Origin: Oscillatoria sp. FACHB-1407
GTDB taxonomy: Bacteria > Cyanobacteriota > Cyanobacteriia > Elainellales > Elainellaceae
Assembly (NCBI RefSeq): GCF_014697545.1
Contig: NZ_JACJSA010000008.1
Coordinates: forward strand, 124,001-188,000
Direction: 5' to 3'
Length of the DNA stretch: 64,000 bases
In this document: positions 26,454 to 44,527 of the stretch, one piece after another
How the letters are laid out: the number at the start of each line of letters is the position of its first letter
How positions within the stretch are numbered: position 1 is the first letter of the stretch
The notes under the pieces: generated by a model
Database searches by the model: none
Seen by the model: the letters and a program-made list of their open reading frames with translations, nothing else
What the model was told of the DNA's origin: nothing
Made by a program: the position numbers and the translations under genes

Positions 26454-27875
26454 ATGGCAGAGACGGCACAAGAAGTCTTGGCAATGATTAAAGACCAAGG
26501 CATTAAGATGATTGATCTGAAATTTATTGATATGCCAGGAATCTGGCAGCATCTGACGCTGTATTACGATCAGATCGATGAAAGCAGCTTTGATTCAGGT
26601 GTGCCTTTTGATGGTTCCAGTATCCGGGGTTGGAAAGCCATCAATGAGTCAGACATGGCAATGGTGCCCGATCCAAAAACTGCCTGGATCGACCCTTTTA
26701 TGAAGGAGCCGACCTTAAGCTTGGTCTGCACCATCAAAGAACCTCGGACAGGCGAACTGTATAGCCGCTGTCCTCGTGCGATCGCCCAGAAAGCGGTTGA
26801 TTACCTCCGCTCTACTGGCATTGGTGATACGGTTTACTTTGGTCCTGAGGCAGAATTCTTCATTTTTGATGATGTTCGCTTTGACCAGAACGAGCACGAA
26901 GGCTACTACCACGTAGACAGCGTTGAAGGTCGTTGGAACTCTGGTCGGGTTGAAGAAGGCGGTAACCTCGCGTACAAGCCCCGTTATAAGGAAGGTTATT
27001 TCCCCGTTTCGCCAACGGATACGTCCCAGGATATGCGGACAGAAATGCTGTTGACGATGGCAGCCTGCGGTGTACCCATCGAAAAGCATCACCATGAAGT
27101 CGCTTCTGGTGGTCAGTGCGAACTCGGCTTCCGCTTTGCAGAACTGGTGCAGGCAGCAGACTACTTGATGACATATAAGTATTGCATCAAGAACGTTGCC
27201 AGAAAGTATGGCAAAACGGTTACCTTCATGCCCAAGCCTGTCTTTGGTGACAATGGCTCTGGAATGCACTGCCACCAATCTATTTGGAAAGAGGGCGGTC
27301 CTTTGTTCTATGGCGACGGTTATGCCAATCTGAGCCAGACTGCGCTCCACTATATTGGTGGTATTCTTAAGCATGCTCCAGCTTTGTTGGCAATCACCAA
27401 CCCCACCACTAACTCCTACAAGCGGCTAGTCCCTGGTTTTGAAGCTCCGGTTAACCTCGCTTACTCCCAAGGTAACCGTTCGGCTTCGGTTCGGATTCCT
27501 CTGTCTGGAACAAACCCCAAAGCAAAGCGTTTGGAGTTCCGTTGCCCTGATGCAAGTTGCAACCCCTATCTAGCTTTTGCAGCGATGCTGTGTGCTGGTA
27601 TTGATGGAATCAAGAACCAGATTGATCCAGGTAGCTCATTGGATGTAGACATTTACGACCTCAGTCCCGAAGAACTGGCAAAAGTGCCTTCGACTCCTGG
27701 TTCTCTGATGGATGCTCTGAAGAATTTGGAAGCTGACCATGACTTCCTGACTGCTGGAGGAGTGTTCACCGAAGACTTCATCAACACCTGGATTAGCTAC
27801 AAGTTAGATAATGAAGTGATCCCGATGAATATTCGTCCTCACCCTTACGAATTTGCGCTCTACTACGATGTGTAG
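26454..27875 (+). CDS. glnA: glutamine synthetase type I
   Basis: This 473-residue enzyme has all the GS-I signatures: [36 protein letters not shown], the ATP-binding [16 protein letters not shown] and the glutamate loop region NRSASVRIP. It combines ammonium and glutamate to glutamine and is the main entry of nitrogen in cyanobacteria. The ribosome binding site AGGAGCAAGGAG is just before the ATG. A Tyr in DIYDLSPEE matches the adenylylation region of enterobacterial GS, but cyanobacterial GS is generally controlled by small inactivating proteins instead; none are seen here. Transcription is probably NtcA-activated from the promoter at 26148. Confidence 0.97.
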
Positions 27876-27916
27876 AGATCGCAAGGCATAGCTTCAGTCC
27901 AATTTAAGGTTGTCTG

Positions 27917-27943
27917 GGGGCGTAGTAACTACGCCCCTTTTTT
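27917..27943 (+). terminator. intrinsic terminator of glnA
   Basis: GGGGCGTAGTAACTACGCCCC forms a strong stem, followed by TTTTTT (27938-27943). It begins 42 bp after the glnA stop codon. Confidence 0.92.
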
Positions 27944-27970
27944 AACTGTTATCTTCAGAGCCTGCCTCAA

Positions 27971-28075
27971 CTAACATCAATTCAGGTTAAGCACCTGGCG
28001 AATGAATTCGCGGCTAGCAGAACCAAGTTCGCCTACCCGGACTCCAACAGTGAGGGTTTGGATGAACCGTCTCAA
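27971..28075 (-). repeat. interspersed repeat family A, reverse-oriented copy
   Basis: The stretch contains AATGAATTCGCGGCTAGCAG and GGCGAATGAATTCGCGG-type pieces. Read on the minus strand it matches the tails of the copies at 39485-39680 and 63325-63480 (a gcgaattcattcgcc core). Identity was judged by eye. Confidence 0.6.
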
Positions 28076-28179
28076 GTTTATTTTGTCCTGACATAGCAAA
28101 GGTACTGTTTGTTAGGACACTTCTCAATTCTGAATATGGTGTCCTACCTCTCAGTCCTCAGTCCTCAGCACTTTACTAT

Positions 28180-28295
28180 AGCGGCGGTTTTATAGCTTTG
28201 GTCAGAAAGCTTATGGCAATGGCTCAAACCCTGATGCTGGAGAAGCTTCCTGACACGCCTCCACCTCATCGAATGTGGCGGCGGTTATAACCGCC
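28180..28295 (+). repeat. interspersed repeat family B, copy 1
   Basis: The element starts with a GCGGCGGTTTTATAGC end, contains GGTCAGAAAGCTTATGGCAA and GCTGGAGAAGCTTCCTGAC, and ends with GAATGTGGCGGCGGTTATAA. The ends form an inverted pair. Full-length relatives lie at 31515-31628 (reverse) and 44813-44916 (forward). Confidence 0.85.
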
Positions 28296-28323
28296 AAAAT
28301 TCTTATCTCTAACTCAGGTCAAA

Positions 28324-28617
28324 CTAGATGGTTGCGATCGCACTGATCAAAGATTGGTTTAGCGATCGCCATTCCTCGAAGTCAAGCTTTTCGAGTTCGT
28401 AGAGTTCTCGGATAAAGCTGGTCAACACATGACGAGCAATATATTTGTTAATAATTTTTTTGGCGGCTGCGATCGCCTGAAAATCGGTGGAGTAGGTTAA
28501 GTAATCCCCTAAACGCTCTCTAGCAGGAGAGTAGCAGATACTTTGATAGCCATGTTCAGTCTGCATGACTTCAATGAGCCAACCATGATAAAAGTCTGCC
28601 AGATGTGAATTTTGCAT
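28324..28617 (-). CDS. small conserved-type hypothetical protein
   Basis: This 97-residue protein begins MQNSHLADFYHGWLIEVMQTEHGYQSICYSPARERLGDYLTYSTDFQAIAAAKKIINKYI. The start has the look of a soluble protein with a beta-rich first half (GWLIEVMQTEHGYQSICYSP) and a helical second half (VLTSFIRELYELEKLDFEEW). I do not recognise a named domain. It is alone on the minus strand between glnA and a membrane-protein gene. Its start ATG at 28617 is preceded by only a weak Shine-Dalgarno. Repeat family B lies 28 bp beyond its stop codon. Confidence 0.62.
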   Translation of the reverse strand: MQNSHLADFYHGWLIEVMQTEHGYQSICYSPARERLGDYLTYSTDFQAIAAAKKIINKYIARHVLTSFIRELYELEKLDFEEWRSLNQSLISAIATI

Positions 28618-28854
28618 AGGAGCGAGGGTGCAGAACTAAGCAGATGAGCGAGAACCAGGAGCGTATGAGTCTGAGTGCTTACTTTTAAAGTAATAAACTA
28701 TTGCAATTTAAGGTTGCGCAATATGGCGGAATCCAGCAAGCAGTACGGCTCACGAAATGTTTCCCTTAATCACTAATATGCAATGATACTTCACGGCTTT
28801 CAGGAGAGATTTTAGTTAGGCTGAAGTTACAGCTTAATTTTCATAAAGATCTCT

Positions 28855-29382
28855 ATGAACGCTTCTTCTAGCCCCATGGAATCCACCTCGGTGTGGCGTA
28901 GTTCTAAGTGGCAAACCATTGTATTTCTCATGCTGGCATTTTGGCTCAGTTCCAGTCTGCTCCTCGATTTGGTCATTATGCCTCAGCTATACACGGCTGG
29001 CATGATGAGCCAACCTAGTTTTGCAACAGCAGGCTACTCTATTTTTTGGGTTTTCAATCGAGTTGAGTTAACGTGTGCGGCGGTAATTTTAACGAGTGTT
29101 TTAGTGCTCAACCGCATTGAGAGTGCTGTTTTTACAAAGGCTTGGGCGATCGCTCTAGCATTTGGCTTGCTGCTAATTGGCTTGGTTTATACGTATCTGC
29201 TCACCCCTGAAATGAGTGCCTTGGGCTTGCACCTCGACTTATTTTCTGCCAATCAGGAACTCCCTGCTGGAATGCAGCAGATGCAACAAGGCTATTGGTT
29301 GCTTGAATTAATCAAGTTGAGCAGTATCATTGCACTGTTGAACGCGCTTCAACCCAGAGTCATCAGATCTTTGTCTCATTAA
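28855..29382 (+). CDS. four-helix membrane protein, DUF4149-like
   Basis: This 175-residue protein has about four hydrophobic segments: WQTIVFLMLAFWLSSSLLLDLVIMPQLY, the FWVFNRVELTCAAVILTSVLVL region, AWAIALAFGLLLIGLVYTYL and LLELIKLSSIIALL. The pattern (first segment with a polar D, P and a following helix with N and E) resembles DUF4149/TMEM205-like proteins, but I regard this as a suggestion only. The gene is convergent with the GDT1-family pair; the stops lie nine bases apart (29382 and 29391). Function is unknown. Confidence 0.6.
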   Translation: MNASSSPMESTSVWRSSKWQTIVFLMLAFWLSSSLLLDLVIMPQLYTAGMMSQPSFATAGYSIFWVFNRVELTCAAVILTSVLVLNRIESAVFTKAWAIALAFGLLLIGLVYTYLLTPEMSALGLHLDLFSANQELPAGMQQMQQGYWLLELIKLSSIIALLNALQPRVIRSLSH

Positions 29383-29390
29383 GGGGCTGA

Positions 29391-29708
29391 CTACGAGGCT
29401 TCGTTAAGCTGAGAGGGCTTTGTAACAGCATTCCACAATAAACGAACTGCCATGATCGTAAAACCAAGGGCAGCGATCGCCTTGACCCAGTGTGTAGGTA
29501 ACAATTGCGCCATGCTCCCACCCAGCAATACACCCAAAAAACTAGCGAGTAGCAGCGCAGCAGAAGCCCCCAAAAATACCGCTCTGAGGGACTTACAGCT
29601 TCCTCCCAGGGCGATTGCAGCCAGTTGACTCTTATCTCCCAACTCAGACACAAAGACCGTAATAAAACTCAACCCTAGCAAATGCCAATCCACCGTTTCT
29701 AGCTCCAC
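29391..29708 (-). CDS. GDT1/UPF0016 half-type cation exchanger (downstream partner)
   Basis: This 105-residue protein has the family signature ELGDKSQLAAIALGG once, with three predicted membrane segments. GDT1/TMEM165/Mnx-type transporters normally carry two such repeats; here each repeat is a separate gene. The ATG at 29708 overlaps the 3' end of the upstream partner by ten bases. The family exports Mn2+ (and Ca2+) from the cytoplasm to thylakoid lumen or periplasm. Two half-size proteins probably form a heterodimer. Split pairs of this kind have been described in cyanobacteria as hemi manganese exchangers. No riboswitch was found upstream. Confidence 0.88.
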   Translation of the reverse strand: MELETVDWHLLGLSFITVFVSELGDKSQLAAIALGGSCKSLRAVFLGASAALLLASFLGVLLGGSMAQLLPTHWVKAIAALGFTIMAVRLLWNAVTKPSQLNEAS

Positions 29709-30127
29709 AAAATATCACAACACAACATTGCTGCAATAATCAGCAACAAAACTCCCGCCGAAACCTCTAACACTTTTGGGGAAATTTTAGTGGATAACCA
29801 ACGCCCCAACAGGACTCCTAATAGGCTCGTTAAAACCAGAGCAGCCCCAGCTCCCGCAAACACGACCCAGGGAGAATGCGACTCAGCACTCATCAGCAAA
29901 GTGGTCAATTGAGTCTTATCCCCCAATTCAGCCAAAAAAATGGTGATAAACGTGGAGACAAAGATTTCTAGCTCACCCTTGAGGGTTCGCCTGTTAGCTT
30001 CCTGCTGAGATGCAGTCTGTTCTGAAATCTCAGGGGTTGACCTAAGCTGACAAGCTGAAACATCCACTGAGGGCAATTTATGGTGAGTTGAAGCAGCCGA
30101 TTCAAGGGATTCAACCTCAGTTGTCAT
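29699..30127 (-). CDS. GDT1/UPF0016 half-type cation exchanger (upstream partner)
   Basis: The protein is 142 residues from the ATG at 30127; a GTG at 30157 would add ten residues and is an equally possible start. The first 50-odd residues are hydrophilic and Ser/Gln-rich, which is unusual for the family. Then comes the signature VSTFITIFLAELGDKTQLTTLLMS, and about three hydrophobic segments. Its stop overlaps the downstream partner, so the two are translationally coupled. The likely role is Mn2+ export as one half of a two-protein exchanger. Confidence 0.87.
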   Translation of the reverse strand: MTTEVESLESAASTHHKLPSVDVSACQLRSTPEISEQTASQQEANRRTLKGELEIFVSTFITIFLAELGDKTQLTTLLMSAESHSPWVVFAGAGAALVLTSLLGVLLGRWLSTKISPKVLEVSAGVLLLIIAAMLCCDILWS

Positions 30128-30544
30128 GACACTTGGAGGATCAATTAAGGAAGTCACAGGTGTTTCGCAGGGTTTTCATATTTTTTTCATTTTATCCCTG
30201 ACCCTACGCCAATAGTCAACACCTACAACCCTACCCATAAACGTTAGGGTAGAGGGGCTCGGTCTGCGAACAGGGGTTCCACCTCTACACCTCGTCCTCA
30301 TCTGAATGGTCTTCCCGTACCACAACACTCACAAGCTACATGGGTGGGGTTGATATGAATGTGATATCTTATATCCCTGTAGGCAAAGTGATATTAAAGC
30401 GATGCGAAGCAGTTTCCCCAACGGGGCAATCGCCCAGTTAAATTGCTCCGTTAAAGTTAAATCAATGAAGAATTGACTTCGATCAATAGCCAGTCGGCTA
30501 TGATGCCCACAGGAATGTCTACCAACAGTTTGGGGTGAGCCAAT
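30128..30544. other. divergent intergenic region
   Basis: About 417 bp between the GDT1-type pair (minus) and the methyltransferase gene (plus). The 30240-30300 stretch contains GGTTCCACCTCTACACCTCG, related to the GGGGTTCCACCCC-type repeat core of family C. No manganese (yybP-ykoY) riboswitch consensus was recognised on the minus strand. No gene. Confidence 0.4.
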
Positions 30545-31420
30545 ATGTCTGTTAAACCTTACAGAACGATTGGAGCAGGTGTTGGAATCGCAAATTTGCA
30601 GGTTTTTCATCAACGTGCTGGTTTTCAAACAAGCTCAATTCTTCGTGAAGCAGAGAAGATCGAAGATATTTTGAGAAAAGTTTTGTATTTCAAAACCGAT
30701 GTTAAAGATGCCTGGGATGTCTACACAGGAGATAGTTCTAAGCTAAAGAACCTGAATAGCTTTGGCAAACAAATTGTCAGCCAAATGCTAAGAAGTAATC
30801 CTGAGTTTCAAGGGTTTAAGGTTGAATTCAAAGACCCTGTTCTTAAACCAGATGTCTTATTTTTACTTGGGACGTTGTGTGATGATTTCGACCACATGAA
30901 CACCAGCCCCCTATACGGATTTAATGTGTTGGACATTGGCTGTGGTTCACTTTCACCTTATGGTTCACCTGAAAAAGACAACCTGCTCGATCGCTTTTAT
31001 AGTGATCAACCTCCGATCGCAGCTGAGTTGTTGCAAATTTTGGGTGCCCATACAGTGGGCATTGATTCGCGCCCTAACTCAAGGGAGGTGTATGACTATC
31101 AAACAACTTACAAACACAGAACGATGGAGTTTTGTGATGTTGGCAAGTGGCTCACTAGCCTCGACCATTCATTTGATATTGTGTCTTGCATCAACCTATT
31201 CAACAAGTCTGGTTTTGCCTATCACTACAATTTGCCACACCAAATTATTCATTTTCTGACAGGTATACGGAAGGCGATGTCTCCAGGTGGTTTGCTGTAT
31301 TGCACCCTGCCCATTATTCCCTCGTCACCTGAAAACAAGCAATTGAATGAACAGATCTTTAACGGGTCAGGATTTAAAGTGATCTATGAGGGCTATTACG
31401 TCATTCTGCAAGCTCCTTAA
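30545..31420 (+). CDS. class I SAM-dependent methyltransferase-like protein
   Basis: This 291-residue protein has a methyltransferase motif I, FNVLDIGCGSLSPYG, near residue 127, an acidic motif II region (HTVGIDSRPNSREVY), and FDIVSCINLFNKSGFAYHY in the place of motif IV. It ends AMSPGGLLYCTLPI and FKVIYEGYYVILQA, which fits the last strands of the fold. The N-terminal 120 residues are not part of the core and may recognise the substrate. No operon partner is seen; both neighbours face other ways. The substrate is unknown. Its base composition is more AT-rich than its neighbours, so transfer is possible. Confidence 0.75.
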   Translation: MSVKPYRTIGAGVGIANLQVFHQRAGFQTSSILREAEKIEDILRKVLYFKTDVKDAWDVYTGDSSKLKNLNSFGKQIVSQMLRSNPEFQGFKVEFKDPVLKPDVLFLLGTLCDDFDHMNTSPLYGFNVLDIGCGSLSPYGSPEKDNLLDRFYSDQPPIAAELLQILGAHTVGIDSRPNSREVYDYQTTYKHRTMEFCDVGKWLTSLDHSFDIVSCINLFNKSGFAYHYNLPHQIIHFLTGIRKAMSPGGLLYCTLPIIPSSPENKQLNEQIFNGSGFKVIYEGYYVILQAP

Positions 31421-31514
31421 TCTCAATGGGTAACCCCTCTCCATCCGTCCACGATGAGAAGGACATGTGAGAGAGGGGTGATACGCAGCGGCTTCTCGTC
31501 TTAATGACTCAATT

Positions 31515-31628
31515 GATATCGCCGTAGCCACATCCGATGAGGCAGAGGCGAGTCAGGAAGGTTTCCCAGCCAGCATCAGAGTTTGAGCCATTGCCTTTGC
31601 CCTAAGCTTTCTAACCAAAGCTATAAAG
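31515..31628 (-). repeat. interspersed repeat family B, reverse-oriented copy abutting pntB stop
   Basis: Read on the minus strand this copy begins GCTTTATAGCTTTGGTTAGA and ends with GGATGTGGCTACGG. It starts directly at the base after the pntB stop codon (31629-31631) and spans the pntB downstream region. It matches the full-length copies at 28180-28295 and 44813-44916. Confidence 0.85.
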
Positions 31629-33035
31629 CTACGATAAGTCTTTAACGCTTGCCACCAGTTGAGCCACGATTTCTTTAGCACTACCAAATAACATCATTGT
31701 CTTGTCCTTGTAGAACAACTCGTTATCTACACCAGAGAAACCAGCGTTCATCCCGCGTTTAATGATGATAGTGTGATGAGCTTTGTCTACTTCCAGAATC
31801 GGCATTCCATAAATGGGGCTGTTCGTGTCATGGCGAGCGGCTGGATTAACTACATCATTTGCCCCAATCACGAGCGCAACATCAGTGTGTTCAAATTCTG
31901 GATTAATGTCATCCATGTCATAAAGTTGGGGATAAGGCACATTTGCCTCCGCCAATAACACATTCATATGCCCAGGCATACGTCCTGCAACGGGATGAAT
32001 AGCATATTTGACGTCCACGCCAAGTCGTTCGAGTTGATCAGCTAGCTCACGAACGGCATGTTGCGCCTGTGCCACCGCCATACCATAGCCAGGAATAATG
32101 ACTACTGAGCGGGCATACCCTAGCATCATGGCTCCTTCTTCGGAGTCAATCGATTTAATCACTTTTTCAGTTTGAACAGCATTGGTTGCAACGCCTCCGC
32201 TTGTCTTGGTCGTAAATGCACTAAACAAGACATTTGTGATGGAACGGTTCATTGCCTTACACATGATTTGCGTCAGGATGATCCCAGAGGCACCCACTAG
32301 CGCACCTGAGATGATCAGCATGTTGTTCATCAAGACAAAACCAGCTGCACTTGCTGCCAAGCCTGAAAAGGAGTTGAGAAGTGAGATGACTACAGGCATG
32401 TCTGCTCCCCCAATGGGAATGACAAACAGCACTCCCAGTACGAGCGAAATACCTACAAGCACAAGAAAAACAACCAGATCTCTAGGGTAGGCAATCAGGT
32501 AGGCACTACCCGCAAGAAACGCGATGAGCAGCCCAATGCTTAGCATTCTCTGGAATGGAAAGGTAATGGCAGCACCACTCATGAGTTCTTGCAATTTAGC
32601 AAATGCAATTAAGCTCCCCGTCAGGGTGACGCCACCAATGAGAACACTGAGAATGGTGGTGATGGTGTTGTCGAGGGCGATCGCCTCTGGGTTACCCATC
32701 ACTCTCCAAAACTCTGCCATCGCCACAAGGGTTGATGCACCTCCTCCCAAACCGTTTAACAGACCTACCATCTGTGGCATTGCAGTCATCTCAACCCGCT
32801 GAGCCATGACAGTTCCAATTAAGGAACCAATAGCAATACCAACAAAAATCATTTCGTAGCTGAGAACGGATTGATCTAACAGAGTGGCGGCGATCGCAAT
32901 CAACATGCCAATGGCGGCTATTAGATTACCTCGTCGGGCAGTCGCTGGAGAGCCTAGCTCCTTCAACCCCAGAATAAATAGACAGGCGGCTAGCAAATAA
33001 CTCAATTCAATTCCAGTTGGCAAAAACTCGGTCAT
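31629..33035 (-). CDS. pntB: NAD(P) transhydrogenase beta subunit
   Basis: This 468-residue protein has eight or nine hydrophobic segments in its first 260 residues and the NADP-binding domain III at the C-terminus (SVVIIPGYGMAVAQAQHAVRELADQLERLGVDVKYAIHPVAGRMPGHMNVLLAEANVPY). It couples proton transfer across the membrane to hydride transfer from NADH to NADP+. The start at 33035 overlaps the pntA2 stop by four bases (ATGA). It is the last gene in pntA1-pntA2-pntB. No terminator hairpin was found; repeat family B begins at the base after its stop codon. Confidence 0.95.
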   Translation of the reverse strand: MTEFLPTGIELSYLLAACLFILGLKELGSPATARRGNLIAAIGMLIAIAATLLDQSVLSYEMIFVGIAIGSLIGTVMAQRVEMTAMPQMVGLLNGLGGGASTLVAMAEFWRVMGNPEAIALDNTITTILSVLIGGVTLTGSLIAFAKLQELMSGAAITFPFQRMLSIGLLIAFLAGSAYLIAYPRDLVVFLVLVGISLVLGVLFVIPIGGADMPVVISLLNSFSGLAASAAGFVLMNNMLIISGALVGASGIILTQIMCKAMNRSITNVLFSAFTTKTSGGVATNAVQTEKVIKSIDSEEGAMMLGYARSVVIIPGYGMAVAQAQHAVRELADQLERLGVDVKYAIHPVAGRMPGHMNVLLAEANVPYPQLYDMDDINPEFEHTDVALVIGANDVVNPAARHDTNSPIYGMPILEVDKAHHTIIIKRGMNAGFSGVDNELFYKDKTMMLFGSAKEIVAQLVASVKDLS

Positions 33036-33325
33036 GCCTTCACCTCTTTCTTCTTAAACATTTGCAGCATCCGGTCAGTCACCAAAAAGCCACCTACAAC
33101 GTTGATCGTCGCTAAAATGACTGCAATCAGCCCCAAAACCACAGCAACATTCCAATGACCCGCACCAGACACCAACACGGCACCAATCACAGCAATTCCT
33201 GAAATGGCATTGGAACCTGACATTAGGGGTGTGTGGAGCGTAGGAGGCACTTTATTAATTACCTCAAACCCAACGAACGACGCTAAAACAAACACAACTA
33301 AAGCCGACACTAATTCATTTGCCAT
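33032..33325 (-). CDS. pntA2: NAD(P) transhydrogenase alpha subunit, membrane part
   Basis: The protein is 97 residues from the ATG at 33325, which follows a GGAGG ribosome binding site. An in-frame Met further upstream (33385) belongs to the spacer. It has the three-to-four hydrophobic segments of the C-terminal PntA membrane domain (NELVSALVVFVLASFVGFEVINKVP, SGSNAISGIAVIGAVLV and VVLGLIAVILATINVVGGF). In cyanobacteria the alpha chain is split into PntA1 and PntA2, as here. It lies between the other two subunit genes and shares a four-base overlap with pntB. Confidence 0.93.
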   Translation of the reverse strand: MANELVSALVVFVLASFVGFEVINKVPPTLHTPLMSGSNAISGIAVIGAVLVSGAGHWNVAVVLGLIAVILATINVVGGFLVTDRMLQMFKKKEVKA

Positions 33326-33433
33326 GCACATCCTCCAATTCAAGTGTTGATTTGATCGGGACATTTCGCGAAACGCCCCACCCAATGTGTTTATGTAGTT
33401 CCCATGGATTAGACCAACTCGTACAGAGGATGC

Positions 33434-34600
33434 CTAGCTCATAGCAGGTTGGCGCATCGCCTCTAGGGCATCTCGAACTCGTTGATTGCGAACCTCACCC
33501 CCATGAGCAATACATGCCTCCCGAATGATGTCATCCTCAAAATTCAGGTTGAGCGCACCGTCTTTAATCAGTAGTTGCAGCAGGGTCGCGACATTTTTGG
33601 AATACATTTGGCTAGCATGAACCGGCATGGAAGACGGCAGATTCATTGGCCCAATGATCGTCACACCATTCCGCACCACATTTTTGCCGGGTTCTGTGCA
33701 GGCGCAGTTACCCCCTTGCTCAGCCGCCAAATCAACGATGACCGAACCTGGCTTCATTTGAGCAACCATCTCTTCAGTCAACAGCAGCGGTGCTTTTTTG
33801 CCAGGAACTTGAGCTGTAGTCACTACAACATCGGCTTGACGAACGTGGTCTGTCACAACTTGGCGCGATCGCTCCTTTGCAGCTTCTGAAATCTCTTTGG
33901 CGTATCCTCCAGAGGCGACCGTGTCTTCCTCCAGTTTCACCTCAACAAACTTTGCACCCAGGCTCTGCACTTCCTCTTTGACCGCAGGGCGAATGTCAAA
34001 CGCCTCAACTACTGCGCCCAAGCGGCGAGCTGTGGCGATCGCCTGTAACCCCGCGACTCCTGCCCCCATGACAAACACCTTAGCAGGAGCGATCGTTCCA
34101 GCCGCAGTCGTCAACATTGGGAAAAACTTAGGCAATGCGGTTGCTGCAATCAGCATGGCTTGATAACCCGCCACCCCTGCTTGTGACGACAATGCATCCA
34201 TACTCTGAGCACGGCTCGTTCTGGGAATCATCTCCATGCTAAAAGCGGAAACGTGGCGATCGGCTAACCGTTGCACCCCAATTGGATCCCCTAAAGGATT
34301 TAAGAAACTAATCAGTACGGCTCCTTCACGAAGCAAATTGATCTCAGACTGCCCATTCTCACGCTCACGAGGGGGACTGACCTTTAAAACCACATCAGCT
34401 TCACCCCACAATTGAGCCACATCTGAAACAATCCTTGCTCCAGCAGCTTCGTAGGCACTGTCCACAAAATAAGACCCTTCTCCAGCACCCGTTTCCACTA
34501 AAACCTCTATTCCTTGCTTGACGAGTCGAGCCACCGTATCCGGCACTAAAGCAACCCGCCGCTCACCCATCTCAATTTCTTTTGCAACAGCTATTTTCAT
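33434..34600 (-). CDS. pntA1: NAD(P) transhydrogenase alpha subunit, NAD-binding part
   Basis: This 388-residue soluble subunit resembles alanine dehydrogenase. It starts MKIAVAKEIEMGERRVALVPDTV and has the Rossmann motif VMGAGVAGLQAIATARRLGA near residue 175, followed by FDIRPAVKEEVQSLGAKFVEV. It binds NAD(H) in domain I. A ribosome binding site AAGGAGAC precedes the ATG. It is the first gene of the pntA1-pntA2-pntB operon; the 1.2-kb gap upstream should contain its promoter. Split alpha subunit genes are normal for cyanobacteria. Confidence 0.95.
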   Translation of the reverse strand: MKIAVAKEIEMGERRVALVPDTVARLVKQGIEVLVETGAGEGSYFVDSAYEAAGARIVSDVAQLWGEADVVLKVSPPRERENGQSEINLLREGAVLISFLNPLGDPIGVQRLADRHVSAFSMEMIPRTSRAQSMDALSSQAGVAGYQAMLIAATALPKFFPMLTTAAGTIAPAKVFVMGAGVAGLQAIATARRLGAVVEAFDIRPAVKEEVQSLGAKFVEVKLEEDTVASGGYAKEISEAAKERSRQVVTDHVRQADVVVTTAQVPGKKAPLLLTEEMVAQMKPGSVIVDLAAEQGGNCACTEPGKNVVRNGVTIIGPMNLPSSMPVHASQMYSKNVATLLQLLIKDGALNLNFEDDIIREACIAHGGEVRNQRVRDALEAMRQPAMS

Positions 34601-35816
34601 GCAGTCTCCTTAAAGTAATCAGACATCGATGTTGGTAATTCCAAAACGTGTGATGGATGGTAGAAACCTTAATGCAGTACAGAGCAACTTTAATGTGAAG
34701 CAATTTAACAAAACCGACTTATCTGTTTACAGATAGCCAGCCTCATTAACGTGCAATTGCTGTTGGTTAAAACTACCATTCGAAATGCTAAATAGCTCTA
34801 ACCCTGGCATTCTTTTTAAGTAACAGTTGCCTAGTGATGCATTAGCGCAACATCATTCTTCACTACCACAATTCTCTTCAAAAGAGCTTAATTGAGCTTG
34901 ACCCTACATTTGATCAAGATTCTTCATGATCATTTACCATTCACCATCAAACGTTGCATAACTAGTACTGAGTGGTGAACCGCGATCGCCCTTATCACAA
35001 AGAATTGAGAACAATCCTGGCATTTCAATTATTGTCCTGATAGGCAACAAAACCATCTGTGGAGTGCGGGGTTTGCACTTACAGATAAGGACATCTTATT
35101 CACCTAAAGATCGATTTCACAATTGCGATCAAAATATTTAAAGATTTGGGACATAATTCACAATGTTCGGTTTATAAACCTTTGTTTCAAGAGGAATAAA
35201 TAATACCCTTAGGATGGTTAATCGCATCCTAGTTGATCCCCAAAGTTGCAACCAACTCCTTAACTTAACTTATAATTTTTCCTTACTCAAAAAGTAGAAA
35301 TTGTCACTTAAATTTGAGTCCATTCACTTCATTTTTATGGCCTGGTGTCAGCATTTGTTGACCTAATTCAAAACACTCAATCATATCTATTTCCCCCAGA
35401 TAACACATCACTGGGACTTTATAAATTGAGGAGAGCCACGAGGATACATTACTCTCTCAGTCGTAGCCTGACCCATGTCCAAGAGACAAAGGTCAAATAG
35501 GTGGATTTCAAACCCGATTTGAAATTGCTATCAATCTGGCAAGAGATGCTATCAGCTTTAGCCGGTAAGCAGTGTCGCGCTTGGAAGGGTGACTGGGGGT
35601 TAGAGCAAACTAAATATTCACAGCCAAAAAATGCTTAAATTTTTTATAGTTCTTTCGGCACCTCTTATTAGAGAATGCCGTCAATTGATCGAGCAGGACC
35701 CCAAGCAATCCTGATAAATTCATAAAGGTGGCGTGTTGTTATCATAGGTAACAATACTCGTTACTCGAATCCCACCTATTACCCTATTGAGACGCTCTAA
35801 CTCAGGTATCAAGCCT
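34601..35816. other. 1.2-kb AT-rich region without genes
   Basis: No ORF above 60 residues with any recognisable feature is present on either strand. Visible structure: a 12-bp palindrome GGTTTATAAACC at 35169-35180; a hairpin AGGATGGTTAATCGCATCCT near 35212-35231; an imperfect dyad TTGTTATC-ATA-GGTAACAA at 35736-35754 upstream of the DUF2808 gene. The pntA1 promoter must be near 34601-34760. The region could hold a small RNA, but I cannot show one. Confidence 0.4.
35736..35754. promoter_or_regulatory. dyad symmetry upstream of DUF2808 gene
   Basis: TTGTTATC (35736-35743), ATA, then GGTAACAA (35747-35754) form an imperfect inverted repeat with seven of eight pairs. It lies 63 bp before the ATG at 35817 and may be an operator. 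Confidence 0.35.
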
Positions 35817-36356
35817 ATGTCTTTGAAGCAAGCACGAACCCCTCGTTTTTTATCGGCTCTAGCGATCGCGGGTTGCCTAGCCCTCGGAATGCCGATCGCC
35901 ACTCTGGCGCAGGGCTTACCTGGACTTACTATTTTTAGCGGTGTTGATCGAGAAAATTTATTAGGCTATCGCCTCGATTTTGATGGCAGACCTGGCAGTC
36001 GCGATCGCTATCGTTTAAGAATTCCGGCTCGCAAAATGGATACAGCCGTCTCTCAATTCGCTATTACTTACCCCGACACCTACCGAGGCGAATTTGATGA
36101 AGACGATATTGAAATTCGCATCAGCGGTGATAGTATCCCACTGGATGAAGTAACCTGGGATCGCGAAAATCGGGTCATTGAGATCTATCCCGTCACTCCG
36201 ATTCCGGCAGACACACGGGTCGAAATTGTCTTTTCCAATGTCCGCAACCCGACTAACGGTGGGACTCACTATTTCAACGCTCTCGTCCAAACACCAGGAG
36301 ATGTGCCATTACTGCGTTATGTTGGCACCTGGATCGTCAACATTGGTTCTCAATGA
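35817..36356 (+). CDS. secreted DUF2808 protein
   Basis: The protein is 179 residues from the ATG at 35817; the TTG at 35787 is an unlikely start. It has a signal peptide (FLSALAIAGCLALGMPIATLAQG, cleavage after the ALAQ region) and the DUF2808 core: RYRLRIPARKMDTAVSQFAITYPDTYRGEFDEDDIEIRI, followed by VTWDRENRVIEIYPVTPIPADTRVEIVFSNVRNP. DUF2808 is a cyanobacterial family of secreted proteins with unknown role. A long inverted repeat at 36388-36437 is placed just downstream as a possible terminator. Confidence 0.85.
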   Translation: MSLKQARTPRFLSALAIAGCLALGMPIATLAQGLPGLTIFSGVDRENLLGYRLDFDGRPGSRDRYRLRIPARKMDTAVSQFAITYPDTYRGEFDEDDIEIRISGDSIPLDEVTWDRENRVIEIYPVTPIPADTRVEIVFSNVRNPTNGGTHYFNALVQTPGDVPLLRYVGTWIVNIGSQ

Positions 36357-36387
36357 GACTTGAGACACACTAGCCATCATCGGTATT

Positions 36388-36437
36388 AGAGGCTGAGCGA
36401 TGCACCGTAACCCTACTGCGGCAGTCGTTCAGCCTCT
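36388..36437 (+). terminator. candidate terminator downstream of DUF2808 gene
   Basis: AGAGGCTGAGCGA (36388-36400) pairs with TCGTTCAGCCTCT (36425-36437), 12 of 13 positions plus a G-T wobble, around a 24-nt loop. It is followed by CTTACG, not a clear T-run, so the call is tentative. Confidence 0.5.
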
Positions 36438-36613
36438 CTTACGTCTGGTTGCTCATCCTCATTTACTTAACTTGGGCGATCGCTTTGCACTCAATGCCTG
36501 TTAGTAGTTCCAGCTAAGGTCAGGATACAGACAAGGCGAGAACAGCCCATTATCATCTCGGATTCCCACTCATACCACCGCTGGATTAAAGGTGGAGCGT
36601 CTGGAACAATGGA

Positions 36614-36622
36614 TGTTATAAT
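36614..36622 (+). promoter_or_regulatory. extended -10 promoter of rpmH
   Basis: TGTTATAAT at 36614-36622 is a TGn-extended -10 box with a perfect TATAAT. It would give a leader of about 95 nt in front of rpmH. Confidence 0.6.
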
Positions 36623-36723
36623 TAGCGACTGTGGCTTTTTGGCGGTGTGTGGCGTCTCCCTCCACTGGAGAGGAACGCTACGGCAACGGTTTCGCCGGAT
36701 TATTCAATTGGAGACAGATTTCA

Positions 36724-36864
36724 ATGACTAAACGTACTCTTGAGGGAACTCGTCGTAAGCGGAGAAGAACATCTGGCTTTCGTGCCAGAATGCGAACCAA
36801 AAATGGGCAAAATGTCATCAAGGCAAGACGCCGGAAAGGACGGTATCGTCTTGCAGTTGTTTGA
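36724..36864 (+). CDS. rpmH: 50S ribosomal protein L34
   Basis: This 46-residue protein, [25 protein letters not shown]..., matches L34 with its basic N-terminus and FRARM motif. The true start is the ATG at 36724, preceded by GGAGAC; a longer in-frame reading into the leader is not real. It is the first gene of the rpmH-rnpA-PH-yidC-jag operon. Confidence 0.96.
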
Positions 36865-36914
36865 TGGTTTAACCTCCCCCGTTAGCCCACCACAGTCTTG
36901 GATGGCAATTTGAT

Positions 36915-37304
36915 GTGGCTCTGCCTAAAGCCAACCGATTAAAGCGACGGCAAGATTTTAACGCAGTTTATCAGATGGGTTTACGACGTAGTGCAGCCCA
37001 TTTGACGTTAAGAGCCTTAAAGCTGCCATCCCATCCGGCAACCTCTGAAGCAGGCAATGCAATTACTCCGTTGCCAACCTGCATCGGCATTTCAATCAGT
37101 CAAAAAGTAAGTAAGCGAGCTGTCATTCGCAATCGTATTAAGCGACAGATTCGTGCTGCTTTGTCCGAACTATTACCCACCTTTCATCCTGGTTGGTACT
37201 GTGTCATTGTTGTTAGACCTGGAGCAATCCAGTGCGATTATCAGCAATTTCTGCAAGAATTAAAACAGCTATTAGTAGACGCTGAGGTGATCGATGGGTA
37301 TTAA
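36915..37304 (+). CDS. rnpA: ribonuclease P protein component
   Basis: This 129-residue basic protein starts at GTG 36915 (ALPKANRLKRRQDFNAVYQMGLRR) and carries the RNase P signature: VSKRAVIRNRIKRQIRAALSEL. It binds RNase P RNA and assists 5' maturation of tRNA. The first Met of the translated ORF is a GTG codon, which is plausible for this position 50 bp after rpmH. It overlaps the PH-domain gene by 11 bp. Confidence 0.95.
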   Translation: MALPKANRLKRRQDFNAVYQMGLRRSAAHLTLRALKLPSHPATSEAGNAITPLPTCIGISISQKVSKRAVIRNRIKRQIRAALSELLPTFHPGWYCVIVVRPGAIQCDYQQFLQELKQLLVDAEVIDGY

Positions 37305-37680
37305 AGAAGAGGTGTATTTTGAGGGTGCGCCCCACGTCGGAGATTTAATTATCAACATATTGCTGGGGTTCACAGTGATCTGTTTGCCTCTTACAGTCGG
37401 TGCAATCGTCAGAGCACTATGGCTGCGTTACCGCATCACCGATCGCCGAATTTCAGTAACCGGGGGATGGATGGGGCGCGATCGCTCCGATATCATCTAT
37501 TCCGAAGTGGTAAAGGTGGTCAAGGTTCCTCGAGGTCTTGGAATCTGGGGTGATATGGTTGTAACACTCAGGGATGGAAGCCGCTTAGAGTTGAGGGCAG
37601 TACCCCGATTTCGTGAGGTTTACGACTACATTAATGAGCGAATTTCGACCAAAGGTCGCAAGGTAAGCGAGACGGTTTAG
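37294..37680 (+). CDS. bacterial PH (DUF304-type) membrane protein
   Basis: This 128-residue protein has two hydrophobic segments near the start (LIINILLGFTVICLPLTVGAIVRALW) followed by YRITDRRISVTGGWMGRDRSDIIYSEVVKVVKVPRGLGIWGDMVVTLRDGSRLELRAVPRFREV, the bacterial PH/YdbS-like domain. It overlaps rnpA by 11 bp and lies 70 bp before yidC. Its position inside the conserved rnpA-yidC interval is typical of cyanobacteria and suggests a link to membrane protein biogenesis, but its role is not known. Confidence 0.85.
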   Translation: MGIKEEVYFEGAPHVGDLIINILLGFTVICLPLTVGAIVRALWLRYRITDRRISVTGGWMGRDRSDIIYSEVVKVVKVPRGLGIWGDMVVTLRDGSRLELRAVPRFREVYDYINERISTKGRKVSETV

Positions 37681-37750
37681 GCATAAACCTCTAATATTAC
37701 AGGTAGATTAGATTCAGCAAATTCAGAGCACGTTAGGTTGACATAAAAGC

Positions 37751-38902
37751 ATGGATTTTGGTGTTGGGTTTCTCTCCAATAATGTGATGCTGCCGATCCT
37801 GGATTTTTTCTACGGGATCGTACCCAGCTATGGTCTAGCCATCGTGGCTCTGACATTGGTGATTCGATTTGCACTATACCCTTTGAGTGCTGGCTCAATT
37901 CGTAGCATGAGACGTATGCGAGTTGCTCAGCCAGTCATGCAAAAGCGGGTCAAAGAAATTCAGGAACGATATAAAGATGAGCCTGCCAAGTTGCAAGAGG
38001 AGATGGGCAAAATCTATAAGGAGTTTGGCAATCCTCTGTCAGGTTGCTTTCCCTTGATTTTGCAAATGCCAATCCTGTTTGCTTTATTTGCAACTCTACG
38101 GGGATCACCCTTCTCCGATGTGAACTACTCAATCAACCTCCAAATCTTACCTCGAGAGCAGATTGAGCAAATTCAGCCGCAAGCTTTCTCAACCAATCCT
38201 CAAAACATTTACATCGCTGATGGGGTTCATGCTCCGATCGCAGCGTTGATCCCCAGCGGAAATCGTCTAGTTGTTGGTGATAAAACAACCATCGAATTTC
38301 AAACAACTACAGGTAAGCCGTTCAAAGAGCTTGTCTCTGAGTATCCTGAGACACAGTTGGAGCCAACGAACTGGAAGGTTGTAAAGGGTGAAGATCGGGT
38401 TCGCATTGATGAAAGTGGTGTGATTGAAGCTTTACAACCTGGAGATGTCACTCTCCAAGGCACAATTCCAGGTTTAGCCGCAAATAAGGGCTTCCTCTTT
38501 ATCACTGCTTTAGGTCGTGTTGGGGCTGTTAATGCAGATGGCAGTATCAACTGGGACATCGTGGGCATGGTCATCTCCTTTGGGCTGAGCCTCTATGTCA
38601 ACCAGTTACTCTCTGGGCAGGGCGCAAAACCTGGTGATACCAATGCGAACTCCCAGCAAGAGGTGGTGAATAAGTTTACTCCGATTCTGTTTTCAGGAAT
38701 GTTCCTGTTCTTCCCTCTTCCCGCTGGGGTGTTGATGTATATGCTGATTGCAAACATTTTTCAGACATTCCAGACGTTCATTCTCTCTAGAGAGCCCCTT
38801 CCTGAGAATCTGCAAAAGATTGTTGATGAGCAGGACAAGCAAAGTAAAGAGGACGAGCGACCAGCCCTTCCTTTTGAGCCTGGACGTAAGAAGAAAGCCT
38901 GA
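37751..38902 (+). CDS. yidC: membrane protein insertase YidC/Oxa1
   Basis: This 383-residue protein has the first transmembrane part ([30 protein letters not shown]), the cytoplasmic hairpin ([63 protein letters not shown]) and the last helices ([30 protein letters not shown]). Between helix 2 and helix 3 there is a lumen/periplasm-side insertion of about 170 residues with a Big2-like segment ([18 protein letters not shown]); this is typical of cyanobacterial YidC. It inserts thylakoid and plasma membrane proteins. It is followed two bases later by jag. Confidence 0.95.
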
Positions 38903-38904
38903 TC

Positions 38905-39399
38905 ATGGATGACACAAGATTGCAGCAGGGTAAACAATGGTTAGAGCAACTTTTGAAGCTTGCTGCTTTATCCGTCCCTGTTAAGGCGGATCTGGCAGGA
39001 ACTCAAGCTTTAGACGAAAGCTGTTGGCTGACTATTGACCACACAGCTTTAACTCCGGAACAGATAGAAATCTTGACTGGAACGGATGGAGCGGTGATTG
39101 ACTCCATTCAGTACTTAGTCAATACAATCTTGAATCTGGGTCAAGCTGAGGATCAACGTCGAGCTTACACAGTTGAGTTGAATGAATATCGCATTCGTCG
39201 CCAAACCGAGTTGCAGAAGATGGCAGAGCAGGCAGTCAGCCATGTCCGAGAAACGGGTGATGAGTACGAGATGAAGGATTTGTCTTCAGCCGAGAGACGC
39301 CAAGTTCACACTATTCTCAAAGCGTTTGAAGATTTAGAAACTTACAGCCGTGGGCAAGAACCCGATCGCCGCCTTGTCGTTAGACGATTACAAGCGTAG
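38905..39399 (+). CDS. jag: KH/R3H domain RNA-binding protein (Jag-like)
   Basis: This 164-residue protein begins MDDTRLQQGKQWLEQLL; a KH-like part (LTGTDGAVIDSIQYLVNTIL) is followed by the R3H motif, R-x3-H in ERRQVHTIL. The start lies two bases after the yidC stop, so the gene is translated with yidC. In other bacteria the Jag/KhpB protein binds RNA and affects cell shape. The N-terminal Jag_N domain found in firmicute versions is absent, as usual in cyanobacteria. Confidence 0.9.
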   Translation: MDDTRLQQGKQWLEQLLKLAALSVPVKADLAGTQALDESCWLTIDHTALTPEQIEILTGTDGAVIDSIQYLVNTILNLGQAEDQRRAYTVELNEYRIRRQTELQKMAEQAVSHVRETGDEYEMKDLSSAERRQVHTILKAFEDLETYSRGQEPDRRLVVRRLQA

Positions 39400-39484
39400 G
39401 AGCCTGGTAAAAATCTTTTCCTGAATCTCTCTGTGCATCTGCATGGAGGGATTTCATTTAATGTTCAAAATTGACTTTAGTTAA

Positions 39485-39680
39485 CGTGAATTCGGGGTAA
39501 GGATTTTGGCGGTTAAAACAAACCCTGATTCTGGGAAGCCTCCTGACTCGCCTTCGCCTCATCGCATATGGCTACGGCTTTATCAGGACAAAACCGACCT
39601 GCGTCGGTTGAGCAAACCTATAATCTCCGTTAGTTCGCAACGACGGACTTCGTCCTGATGGCCACAAATTCATTCACCAG
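39485..39680 (+). repeat. interspersed repeat family A with nested family B segment
   Basis: Landmarks are GTGAATTCGGGGTAAGG, GACAAAACCGACCTGCGTCG, GGACTTCGTCCTGATGGCC and AATTCATTCACC. Related copies occur at 63325-63480 and about 50676-50780, and reversed at 27971-28075. The central part (39531-39595) is like the end of family B. Confidence 0.75.
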
Positions 39681-39782
39681 AGGCTTAACCCGAATTGAGG
39701 TTAGTTAACTCTAGTCGTTAACCAACGTTCATGTTTCCAATTAGACTGAGAAGAGTGGGTGGCGATCGCCATCCGCGTCAAC

Positions 39783-39889
39783 CTAGTGTGCGAACAAAAA
39801 GTTCTTCAATGTAGGGGGTTTGGGGGCTTTGCCCCCAAGAAGGGGTTCCACCCTTCACCCCTTTCAAAACTTATTTTTTGCTGTGCTAG
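39783..39889 (+). repeat. CTAG-bounded family C element, copy 1
   Basis: About 107 bp from CTAG (39783-39786) to CTAG (39886-39889). The interior has GTGCGAACAAAAAGTTCTTC, a GGGGGCTTTGCCCCC hairpin, GAAGGGGTTCCACCC and AAAACTTATTTTTTGCTGTG. It is nearly the same, in reverse, as the element at 61298-61405. Confidence 0.88.
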
Positions 39890-39961
39890 TAAGACGTACG
39901 GTATTAAGACATACTGTACTCAAGCGTACTGTCTCAACGAGTTGAGAAGGAAGGCTCACTC

Positions 39962-40471
39962 ATGGATGCAATTTATATTCCCCAACTACTCAGGGCACCA
40001 GAGCAGACCGAAACCCTTGAGATTCATGACTACTTACCTGGATTAGAGACATTAACTCCAGTGCAAGGAGTTGTACGAGTGACTCATCGAGGCAACTATT
40101 TAGAGGTGGTCGCTCAAGCCGAAACCATTATTACCCTAACCTGCGATCGCTGTCTCAAGCAGTATAACCATCGACTGTCAATTGATACCTCTGAATTAAT
40201 TTGGCTTGACGAAGCCGCAGCAGATGTCGATAATCTTCCCCTAGAACGGGAGATTACTCTAGAAGAACTGGTTGAGTCCCTTCATCCGCAGGGACACTTC
40301 CATCCTGATGAATGGCTGTACGAGCAACTCTGCTTAGAAATTCCACAGCGAAAACTTTGTGACCAGGAATGTTCTGGCATCTCTCTCAACGATTCTCTTC
40401 CTGAACCGTCTCCCTCCAATGGCGATCGCCGCTGGGCATCTCTTGAAGCATTGAAACGGCAATTCTCATGA
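39962..40471 (+). CDS. DUF177/YceD family protein
   Basis: This 169-residue acidic protein has the YceD/DUF177 pattern: VVRVTHRGNYLEVVAQAETIITLTCDRCLKQYNHRLSI in the first half, and CLEIPQRKLCDQECSGISLN near 120-140 with a C-x3-C pair. YceD/DUF177 proteins are linked to 23S rRNA accumulation and, in plants, chloroplast ribosome biogenesis. The start at 39962 follows a purine-rich GAGAAGGAAGG. Its 3' end overlaps the Ycf46 gene by four bases (ATGA), so both are translationally coupled. Confidence 0.9.
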   Translation: MDAIYIPQLLRAPEQTETLEIHDYLPGLETLTPVQGVVRVTHRGNYLEVVAQAETIITLTCDRCLKQYNHRLSIDTSELIWLDEAAADVDNLPLEREITLEELVESLHPQGHFHPDEWLYEQLCLEIPQRKLCDQECSGISLNDSLPEPSPSNGDRRWASLEALKRQFS

Positions 40472-41985
40472 GTTTTAGTGATGAGTTTGAATTATTGCTG
40501 CGTGCCCGCTACTCACTGATCTACATTCCAACCCGTGAGGAAGAACGGGTCGAAGCTGCGATCGCAGAGTGTGCCAAGCGGCAAGGCAATCGGGGTGTGT
40601 ATATTTGGGATTTCGTTGATGGCTATCAGGGCAACCCCAACGACGAAGGATTTGGGCGGCGGAATCCCCTCCAAGCCCTCGAACTGATCGAAAAACTTCC
40701 GGCAACGGCTCCAGCTGTTTTTATTCTGCGCGACTTTCATCGGTTTCTTGACGATGTGGCAGTTGCTCGTAAGCTCCGAAATTTGGGTCGGTTACTCAAG
40801 TCTCAACCTAAAAACATTGTTCTACTGTCACCTCAGCTCACCATTCCCGATGATTTGGCAGAAACTCTAACAGTAATCGAGTTTCCGCTGCCTGACACCC
40901 AAGAGATTCGGGTAGAACTGGAAAAACTGCTGGCGGCGATGGGGCGATCGCTAGAGGCACGGGTATTGGATGAGTTTGTGCGCTCTTGCCAGGGGCTTTC
41001 GCTCGAACGGATTCGGCGGGTGTTAGCACGGGCGATCGCGACTCACGGAGAATTGCGTCCTGAAGACGTTGACTTGATCCTGGAAGAGAAACGGCAAACA
41101 ATCCGGCAAACCCAAATCCTGGATTTTTACCCAACCGCTGCTAATATTTCCGACATTGGTGGTTTAGATAATCTCAAAGATTGGTTAATCCGACGGGGAG
41201 GAGCCTTTTCAGAGCGGGCACGGCAATACGGTTTACCCCATCCTCGAGGTTTATTGTTAGTGGGGATTCAGGGAACGGGTAAGTCGTTAACCGCAAAGGC
41301 GATCGCTCACCATTGGCATCTACCTCTGTTGCGGTTGGATGTGGGACGGTTGTTTGCGGGTTTAGTGGGTGAGTCAGAATCCAGGACGCGGCAAATGATT
41401 CAGTTAGCAGAAGCCCTAGCTCCCTGCGTCTTGTGGATTGACGAAATTGACAAAGCCTTTGCAGGGCTGGATGGCAGAGGTGATTCCGGAACAACGAGTC
41501 GCGTTTTTGGTACGTTTATCACCTGGTTGGCTGAGAAGGCCTCCCCCGTATTTGTGGTCGCTACTGCCAATAACATTCAAGCATTACCGCCAGAAATGTT
41601 ACGGCGCGGACGATTTGACGAAATCTTCTTTGTCGGTTTGCCCAGTCAGGAAGAGCGCAAAGCCATTTTTACGGTTCACCTGACCCGGCTGCGTCCTCAC
41701 AACCTCAAAAATTACGACGTCGATCGCCTGGCCTATGAAACCCCTGATTTTTCGGGGGCTGAGATCGAGCAAATGTTGGTTGAGGCAATGCATATTGGTT
41801 TCAGCCAAAACCGAGATTTTACGACTGAAGATGTGTTGGAAGCTGCTAGTCAGACCATCCCGCTGGCAAGAACGGCTCAAGAACAGATCCAGGCATTACA
41901 GGATTGGGCAGCATCTGGAAAAGCCCGCATGGCATCACGACAGGGAAATTTGAGCAACCGAATTCAGCAACAGTCATTACAATAA
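40468..41985 (+). CDS. ycf46: AAA+ ATPase, Ycf46-type
   Basis: This 505-residue protein has a degenerate N-terminal half (MSFSDEFELLLRARYSLIYIPTREEERVEAAI) and one full AAA+ domain: Walker A GIQGTGKS near residue 270, Walker B CVLWIDEID and the sensor region ATANNIQALPPEMLRRGRFDEIF. This is the layout of Ycf46, an AAA+ protein conserved in cyanobacteria and red-lineage plastids. In Synechocystis Ycf46 has been linked to photosynthesis and CO2 uptake; the exact role is not settled. It overlaps the YceD gene by four bases. Confidence 0.93.
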   Translation: MSFSDEFELLLRARYSLIYIPTREEERVEAAIAECAKRQGNRGVYIWDFVDGYQGNPNDEGFGRRNPLQALELIEKLPATAPAVFILRDFHRFLDDVAVARKLRNLGRLLKSQPKNIVLLSPQLTIPDDLAETLTVIEFPLPDTQEIRVELEKLLAAMGRSLEARVLDEFVRSCQGLSLERIRRVLARAIATHGELRPEDVDLILEEKRQTIRQTQILDFYPTAANISDIGGLDNLKDWLIRRGGAFSERARQYGLPHPRGLLLVGIQGTGKSLTAKAIAHHWHLPLLRLDVGRLFAGLVGESESRTRQMIQLAEALAPCVLWIDEIDKAFAGLDGRGDSGTTSRVFGTFITWLAEKASPVFVVATANNIQALPPEMLRRGRFDEIFFVGLPSQEERKAIFTVHLTRLRPHNLKNYDVDRLAYETPDFSGAEIEQMLVEAMHIGFSQNRDFTTEDVLEAASQTIPLARTAQEQIQALQDWAASGKARMASRQGNLSNRIQQQSLQ

Positions 41986-42048
41986 TCCGTGTAATGGTGG
42001 GATTCCGGCTATGATTTTGGACTACCACCCTGTTACACAGGAGAGCTC

Positions 42049-42516
42049 ATGAGTTGGTCTGGGTTAATCAAGTTTTTTACTGGGTTTACGCTGGCGATCG
42101 CCCTGTTGTTTTTTGCAGGGGTTAATGTAACCCGCCACCTCATTACTCGGCTGACCGCTCCACCCCCCAGACCTGTTTTTCCAAACGATACTCCCAGCCC
42201 TGTTGCTAGTGCTGCGGCATCCACTCCTCAGACGCAAGCAACGCCTAGCCCTGCTGCTAGTGCCGCCCCTCCAGTGGAGCGATCGCCCTCACCTAACGAA
42301 GCAGGTGCTTTTGAAGCACGGGTAACTGAGCCGATTGGCCTGATTGTGCGCCAGGAACCGAGCAGAGATGCAGAGCGATTGGGCGGGGTCGAATATGATG
42401 AAGTTGTCACTGTGTTAGAAACCACATCTGATGGAGAGTGGCAGCGAGTCCGTCTATCGGGTAGTGGGGTTGAAGGTTGGGTAAAAGCAGGCAATGTTGA
42501 ACAAATCAGTGAATAA
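42049..42516 (+). CDS. membrane-anchored SH3b-domain protein
   Basis: This 155-residue protein has an N-terminal membrane segment (LIKFFTGFTLAIALLFFAGVNV), a Pro/Ala/Ser linker (about residues 40-80, PSPVASAAASTPQTQATPSPAASAAPP) and a bacterial SH3 domain: GLIVRQEPSRDAERLGGVEYDEVVTVLETTSDGEWQRVRL followed by GWVKAGNVEQI. SH3b domains bind peptidoglycan or peptide ligands. It lies 63 bp after ycf46 and 99 bp before a peptidoglycan-binding protein gene, which supports a cell-wall role. It is probably exposed to the periplasm. Confidence 0.85.
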   Translation: MSWSGLIKFFTGFTLAIALLFFAGVNVTRHLITRLTAPPPRPVFPNDTPSPVASAAASTPQTQATPSPAASAAPPVERSPSPNEAGAFEARVTEPIGLIVRQEPSRDAERLGGVEYDEVVTVLETTSDGEWQRVRLSGSGVEGWVKAGNVEQISE

Positions 42517-42615
42517 GAGAATAAATGTTTTTCCTGATTTTGTAGAAATGACATAAAATGTCGCCTAAAGAACCAAACCGACTCAGCTTTACTTGAAAAT
42601 TGCTGTGACAACATC

Positions 42616-43935: not shown

Positions 43936-44064
43936 TCATAATACAGCTTGGACAGCTGCCCAACTATCAAACTATAGCAAACCCAAAGGGGTTGCGAGAA
44001 GCGCACTCCAACGGGATACGCCTCTCACGACTCATTTATCTGACAACTTAAATCACTGAAGGGT
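43936..44064. other. gap between peptidoglycan-binding gene and furA without a clear terminator
   Basis: This 129-bp spacer separates two convergent genes. No stem followed by a T-run was found on the plus strand, so transcription from the left can continue into furA. This is the basis for the antisense proposal listed in the findings. Confidence 0.55.
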
Positions 44065-44520: not shown

Positions 44521-44527
44521 AATGCTC

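Follow-up and report, generated by a model that had tools for sequence, protein, structure and literature searches.

A 105-bp repeat of Oscillatoria sp. FACHB-1407, probably an IS630-type MITE, is enriched just past stop codons

Family B copies at the locus

The window analyzed here, a stretch of 64,000 nucleotides from Oscillatoria sp. FACHB-1407, carries copies of a 105-bp non-coding interspersed element, family B, which starts with TATAGCTTTGGTCAG and finishes with CTACGGCTATA. Two full copies lie beside the stop codons of pntB and sigC, and a third lies within another repeat, type F. The features are as follows:

31517-31625, minus strand: full family B copy (profile positions 1-105, 99.4 bits), 3 nt from the pntB stop at 31629-31631
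28191-28289, plus strand: full family B copy (profile, 87.3 bits), within the other repeat at tatagcggcggttT-TA-accgcc
44817-44915, plus strand: full family B copy (profile, 91.4 bits), 4 nt from the sigC stop at 44920-44922
39519-39582, plus strand: truncated family B copy (model positions 41-104, 46.0 bits)
approx. 28171-28320, no strand given: type F host repeat around the 28191 copy, boundaries by inspection
31629-33035, minus strand: pntB, NAD(P) transhydrogenase subunit beta (best NCBIfam match NF006974, 455 bits)
44920-46164, minus strand: sigC (NF005785, 734 bits, above the cut-off of 554; profile 1-414 of 415; C-terminus complete)

The preliminary description had put the pntB copy directly on the base after the stop and the sigC copy three bases from its stop. 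Full copies do adjoin both stops, but they end at 31625 and 44915, 3 and 4 nt away, and the coordinates given for the window copies were off by 2-3 bases; the truncated copy at 39519-39582 was absent from its list. The pntB copy has TATA at its gene-proximal end and a degenerate TATC at the other. The pntB product matches NF006974 over residues 10-461 of 468 (profile 7-457 of 460), with a score below the curated cut-off of 689, and its C-terminus is complete, so the gene was not truncated by the insertion of family B.

The third copy, near 28324, also exists as described, but it does not stand as a gene-end case, as empty-site alignment places it inside another repeat: uninterrupted versions of the host repeat, once aligned, have just one TA where the copy is inserted. 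The host repeat finishes no more than a few bases from the stop codon of ORF 28324-28617 and, because the copy is nested in it, the distance of the copy to that stop reflects the location of the host. The inverted GCGGCGGTTATA-like ends earlier assigned to the first copy belong partly to the host repeat (tatagcggcggttTTAaccgcc), whereas the ends of family B itself are TATAGCTTTGGTCAG and TATAGCCGTAGCCAC.

By inspection, the flanks of the 39519-39582 copy resemble this same host repeat on both sides. Type F is larger than family B, ends in ...CCCGAATTCACGTTA, contains the palindrome GGCGGTTTTAACCGCC and hosts family B insertions; it was seen in the window at 28171-28320 and 39470-39520 and in many places of C1 and C2 of the same genome (G000). 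The window also contains GCGATCGC motifs, on which, together with sigC, its assignment to the cyanobacteria is based. It further holds 255-bp tandem units at 42829-43730; the ORF around them, 42616-43935, has matches to peptidoglycan-binding and hydrolase models. Self-comparison showed more tandem or internal repeats at 2600-2913 (inside ORF 1665-4649) and 63508-63697.

Copy number, target site and ends

Self-comparison of the window, a profile search and a core-motif search all recovered copies, confirming that the repeat is real. The consensus, TATAGCTTTGGTCAGAAAGCTTAAGGCAAAGGCAATGGCTCAAACCCTGATGCTGGGAAAGCTTCCTGACTCGCCTCCGCCCCATCGAATGTGGCTACGGCTATA (105 bp), comes from the alignment of 57 extracted sequences, whose flanks are unrelated on both sides. 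In 2.43 Mb of the genome, the profile search found 110 copies, 75 of them near full length, which extrapolates to ~370 copies over the 8.13 Mb genome, and the core motif gave 190 matches in the whole genome vs 1 for its reversed control. In length (<~500 bp), lack of coding sequence and number of copies, family B thus has the features of a MITE. The copies have drifted to ~90% identity with the consensus; transitions dominate the substitutions among them (551 vs 231) and conservation per position is rather even, the pattern expected of decaying copies.

Since several copies are nested in other repeats, uninterrupted versions of those repeats could serve as empty sites, and we matched to them the joined flanks, retaining between 0 and 6 bases of the element. 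The best match retained exactly two bases (TA) in 9 of 15 nested copies, and all five copies with four mutually agreeing separate empty sites gave TA retention, while the other six were scattered (4, 4, 6, 6, 0 and 3 bases), with two higher-scoring disagreements: 507024 retained 3 bases and has small gaps close by, and 169645 retained 6, from a single match. The single TA at the junction is directly visible in the alignments. Family B therefore shows the 2-bp TA target duplication of a MITE, the hallmark of IS630/Tc1-mariner transposition (PMC2170065). Insertion at palindrome centers was considered and set aside: a few nested copies do lie there, but there is no clear overall excess.

The terminal inverted repeats, a further MITE feature, are perfect over only ~6 nt (TATAGC/GCTATA) and then continue imperfectly (TATAGCNNTRGYCA) to ~14 nt. 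Further in, TTAGGACA occupies positions 21-28 in the homologs of another genome (G041) and in nine ends of in-genome copies from the 2.43 Mb sample, which match TATAGC..T(11)TTAGGACA exactly; the consensus has TTAAGGCA, a variant of TTAGGACA. At the right end, the consensus has no TTAGGACA; this end has its outer 15 nt in common with another sequence, TATAGCCGTAGCCACTTGGGTTAGGACG (C2:184547), but is itself without the inner box. The same register at positions 21-28 is found at the ends of two IS630 elements of ~955 bp from other sampled genomes, L179 and L180. Their ends read TATAGC..TACG........TTAGGACA or nearly so, and a DDE transposase is encoded by two overlapping frames in each. Of 60 sampled genomes, 37 contain TATAGC..T(11)TTAGGACA; the family B genome has it 78 times, with 0 matches to its reversed control. 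Taken together, the TA duplication and the TTAGGACA register, seen also at the termini of two cyanobacterial IS630 elements, indicate that family B is best read as an IS630/Tc1-mariner-type MITE. DDE_3 and IS630 models found no transposase flanked by family B ends in its own genome, where the eight IS630 matches were partial, interrupted, weak or had other ends; for this reason, the partner is one that we infer.

In L179 (1159-2113) and L180 (1151-2104), the two transposase frames are divided at a stretch of seven or eight A, which suggests slippage or frameshifting. A separate IS630-type transposase at ~931-2050 of L137 (C44 of G000) has ends TATAGCRATCCTAAAT, which recur elsewhere in the genome, and is interrupted by one stop.

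At least two further short families with family B-type ends occur in the same genome. M1, a second TATAGC...TTAGGACA element of ~107 bp with a GC-rich inner palindrome, has 13 near-full copies in 2.43 Mb (G000 C1:6913, C1:87183, C1:443324 and others) and parts, mostly inner, in >100 further places, among them partial matches at window positions 30225-30308, 39813-39873, 44744-44802 and 61313-61375. M2, a third such family of ~115 bp, has 13 near-full copies (G000 C1:580398, C1:635578, C2:146424, C3:80191 and others). As two of these are identical across the portion seen, M2 was perhaps recently active. We also met two elements of 69 bp that carry TATAGCYGTAGCCA at either end: the one at G000 C6:230475-230543 resembles a family B copy bounded by a right end on each side, and the one at L159:579-647 (genome G031) has a different interior.

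Placement relative to genes and stop codons

Placement was tested in the 2.43 of 8.13 Mb (30% of the genome) with genes called by a simple home-made hexamer model, whose starts are approximate. Only 1 of 110 copies overlaps a called gene by >30%. Within 10 nt of a stop there are 18 of 109 copies vs 2.8 expected for random intergenic TA sites (P ~4e-10, a value that, like the one below, treats copies as independent, which nested copies are not entirely, and is uncorrected for the several thresholds examined), and within 20 nt there are 27 vs 5.4. Starts are avoided (4 copies within 50 nt of a start, in 5' flanks, vs 17 expected), and convergent gaps hold 33% of copies vs 15% expected, divergent gaps 15% vs 31%. 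When each copy was re-placed at the TA sites of its own gap, 18 of 93 were within 10 nt vs ~8.4 (P ~1e-4) and 27 vs 13 within 20 nt; within 10 nt, the own-gap null gave 11 vs 5.9 for convergent gaps alone, and full-length copies alone also gave 11 vs 5.9. Most of the raw excess thus comes from the choice of gap and the avoidance of starts, with a two-fold excess remaining. On 30% of the genome, the comparison with a random model proposed in the preliminary description thus bears out its view that the proximity to stops is non-random.

The precise docking at gene ends that it had also proposed is not what we found. Offsets run 0, 0, 1, 1, 2, 2, 3, 4, 5, 5, 5 and up, spread over 0-20 nt with no register, and an insertion aimed at stops, which predicts a fixed register, is not supported, given this spread and a target that is TA; a milder regional preference for 3' flanks may still operate. 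Orientation is random both near stops (14 of 27) and in tandem gaps (28 of 57), and the left flanks are A-rich relative to the AT background. Erosion of a spacer between stop and element was rejected, as distance is uncorrelated with decay and truncation is no commoner on the stop-facing side.

We believe that the stop-codon association is most simply explained if insertions near stops are the least harmful, and that selection against insertions in genes and promoters accounts for most of the placement pattern. An insertion preference, fine-scale selection (for example, terminators further out being spared) or a role at transcript ends may account for the residual stop excess. The pattern could in principle be an artefact of the gene calling or of the null model, given how simple the hexamer model is, but we consider this very unlikely: stop positions do not depend on the choice of start, most neighboring genes score well, pntB and sigC, the two cases in the window, are identified genes whose C-termini are complete, and the effect persists under three nulls. 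A role as a 3'-end signal, as a terminator, an mRNA stabilizer or a barrier between convergent transcripts kept near stops for that reason, fits the copies within 10 nt of stops, the two-fold enrichment in convergent gaps and a 12-bp internal stem (GTCAGAAAGCTT/AAGCTTCCTGAC) mostly retained in 71 copies, and has a precedent in the SPRITE repeats near pneumococcal 3' ends, proposed as co-opted terminators (PMC3049150). A compensatory pair in this stem, one event, was found in a homolog from another genome (G014); among the copies themselves, however, stem changes are single-sided and decay proceeds without compensation. Folding of the consensus was no better than that of shuffled sequences on one strand (z -0.46) and weakly better on the other (z -1.55), and no Rfam family matched at the gathering threshold in window positions 27800-45000. 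An intrinsic or SPRITE-like terminator predicts a GC-rich stem followed by a T run and a single preferred orientation, yet scans of the window copies found no stem with a T run, and orientation is random. The 3'-end role put forward in the preliminary description is therefore not supported, and we regard a 3'-end function in general as improbable, while a barrier working on both strands might still operate.

A bias at the insertion stage, in which the transposase or the target DNA favors the region past stops (through base composition, supercoiling or DNA exposed at transcription ends), is a somewhat stronger candidate, although still an unlikely one. It would fit the two-fold within-gap excess within 20 nt, present also in convergent gaps, which have no promoter of the flanking genes, as well as the A-rich left flanks and the lack of correlation between distance and decay, by which gradual spacer loss is not indicated. 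Against it, offsets are not fixed, and the apparently unrelated type F repeat has a similar bias, with 16 of 68 copies no more than 10 nt from a stop vs 3.7 expected, favoring a general cause of the proximity. The control with other families is limited: the first seeds of some repeats covered only the inner part, so their distances are no fair control, and the two other TATAGC families, when redone, have too few full-length copies for comparison. As to the two-fold excess itself, we offer only tentatively that it reflects a preference of an IS630-type transposase for 3' flanks, or else a strand-independent boundary between converging transcripts.

Origin, distribution and relation to known elements

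Homologs of family B with 69-83% identity, most of them full length, are present in 17 other genomes among 388 sampled from the class, and span 12 genera, its own counted. In the GTDB contig collection, from which records near the window may be absent, the exact core gave five single matches in unrelated bacteria, about chance level, and a plasmid search gave no match.

The explanation that we strongly favor for family B is that of a MITE of the IS630/Tc1-mariner kind, inserted at TA in trans, amplified and then selectively lost. A transposase acting in trans would recognize TATAGC..T...TTAGGACA-type ends, cut the element out and insert it at TA dinucleotides, giving the TA duplication observed at empty sites. 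Family B would then have been amplified in this lineage to the estimated ~370 copies and drifted, while copies in genes and promoters, where they are now absent, would have been purged by selection, leaving survivors that are intergenic, enriched in convergent gaps and just past stops. Inside a gap, the additional two-fold excess up to ~20 nt from stops is observed but lies outside this proposal, and purifying selection alone is not obviously enough for the 11 vs 5.9 copies in convergent gaps. Other points count against a MITE: no IS630 transposase flanked by family B ends was found in this genome, the right end of the consensus is without TTAGGACA, and the inverted repeat is perfect over so short a stretch. 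In addition, internal sequence, not the ends alone, is conserved across genera, and a purely parasitic element needs no such conservation.

The closest known parallel is RUP of Streptococcus pneumoniae, a non-coding element of ~107 bp with ~110 copies, a TA target and short inverted ends like those of an IS630-family element, over-represented between convergent genes (PMC2229807, PMC3049150). RUP shares with family B its size, lack of coding sequence, target, IS630-like inverted ends and enrichment in convergent gaps, but its sequence is different and AT-rich, it belongs to another phylum, and its partner, IS630-Spn1, is known within the same species, whereas that of family B is deduced. Moreover, RUP is densest at 50-150 bp from genes, while the enrichment of family B lies within 20 nt of stops. 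For the pneumococcal repeats and IS elements that are over-represented in convergent gaps, selective loss of harmful insertions was likewise the reading (PMC3049150). SPRITE, from the same species, is also a small repeat, found in excess near 3' ends and in convergent gaps, but it looks like a Rho-independent terminator and its ends are AAAA/TTTT (PMC3049150), neither of which applies to family B.

Among cyanobacteria, ISY100 of Synechocystis, an IS630/Tc1-mariner element, has a TA target with duplication and short terminal repeats of 24 bp that are likely the minimum requirement in cis (PMC2170065). Target and duplication are common to both, but family B encodes nothing; its ends were compared with those of L179 and L180. 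By their descriptions, Nezha (Zhou et al. 2008, as summarized in PMC10969869) and the MITEs of Anabaena sp. 90 (PMC3542288) are, like family B, short, repeated and mostly intergenic. Family B would thus be a further IS630-type MITE, closely like RUP and of a kind already known.

In conclusion, one cyanobacterial genome appears to hold hundreds of copies, by estimate, of a single IS630-type MITE, with several related families beside it. With so many copies, insertion preference, selection and a role at transcript ends can be directly tested against each other, and family B provides a measured case of small mobile elements accumulating beside stop codons.
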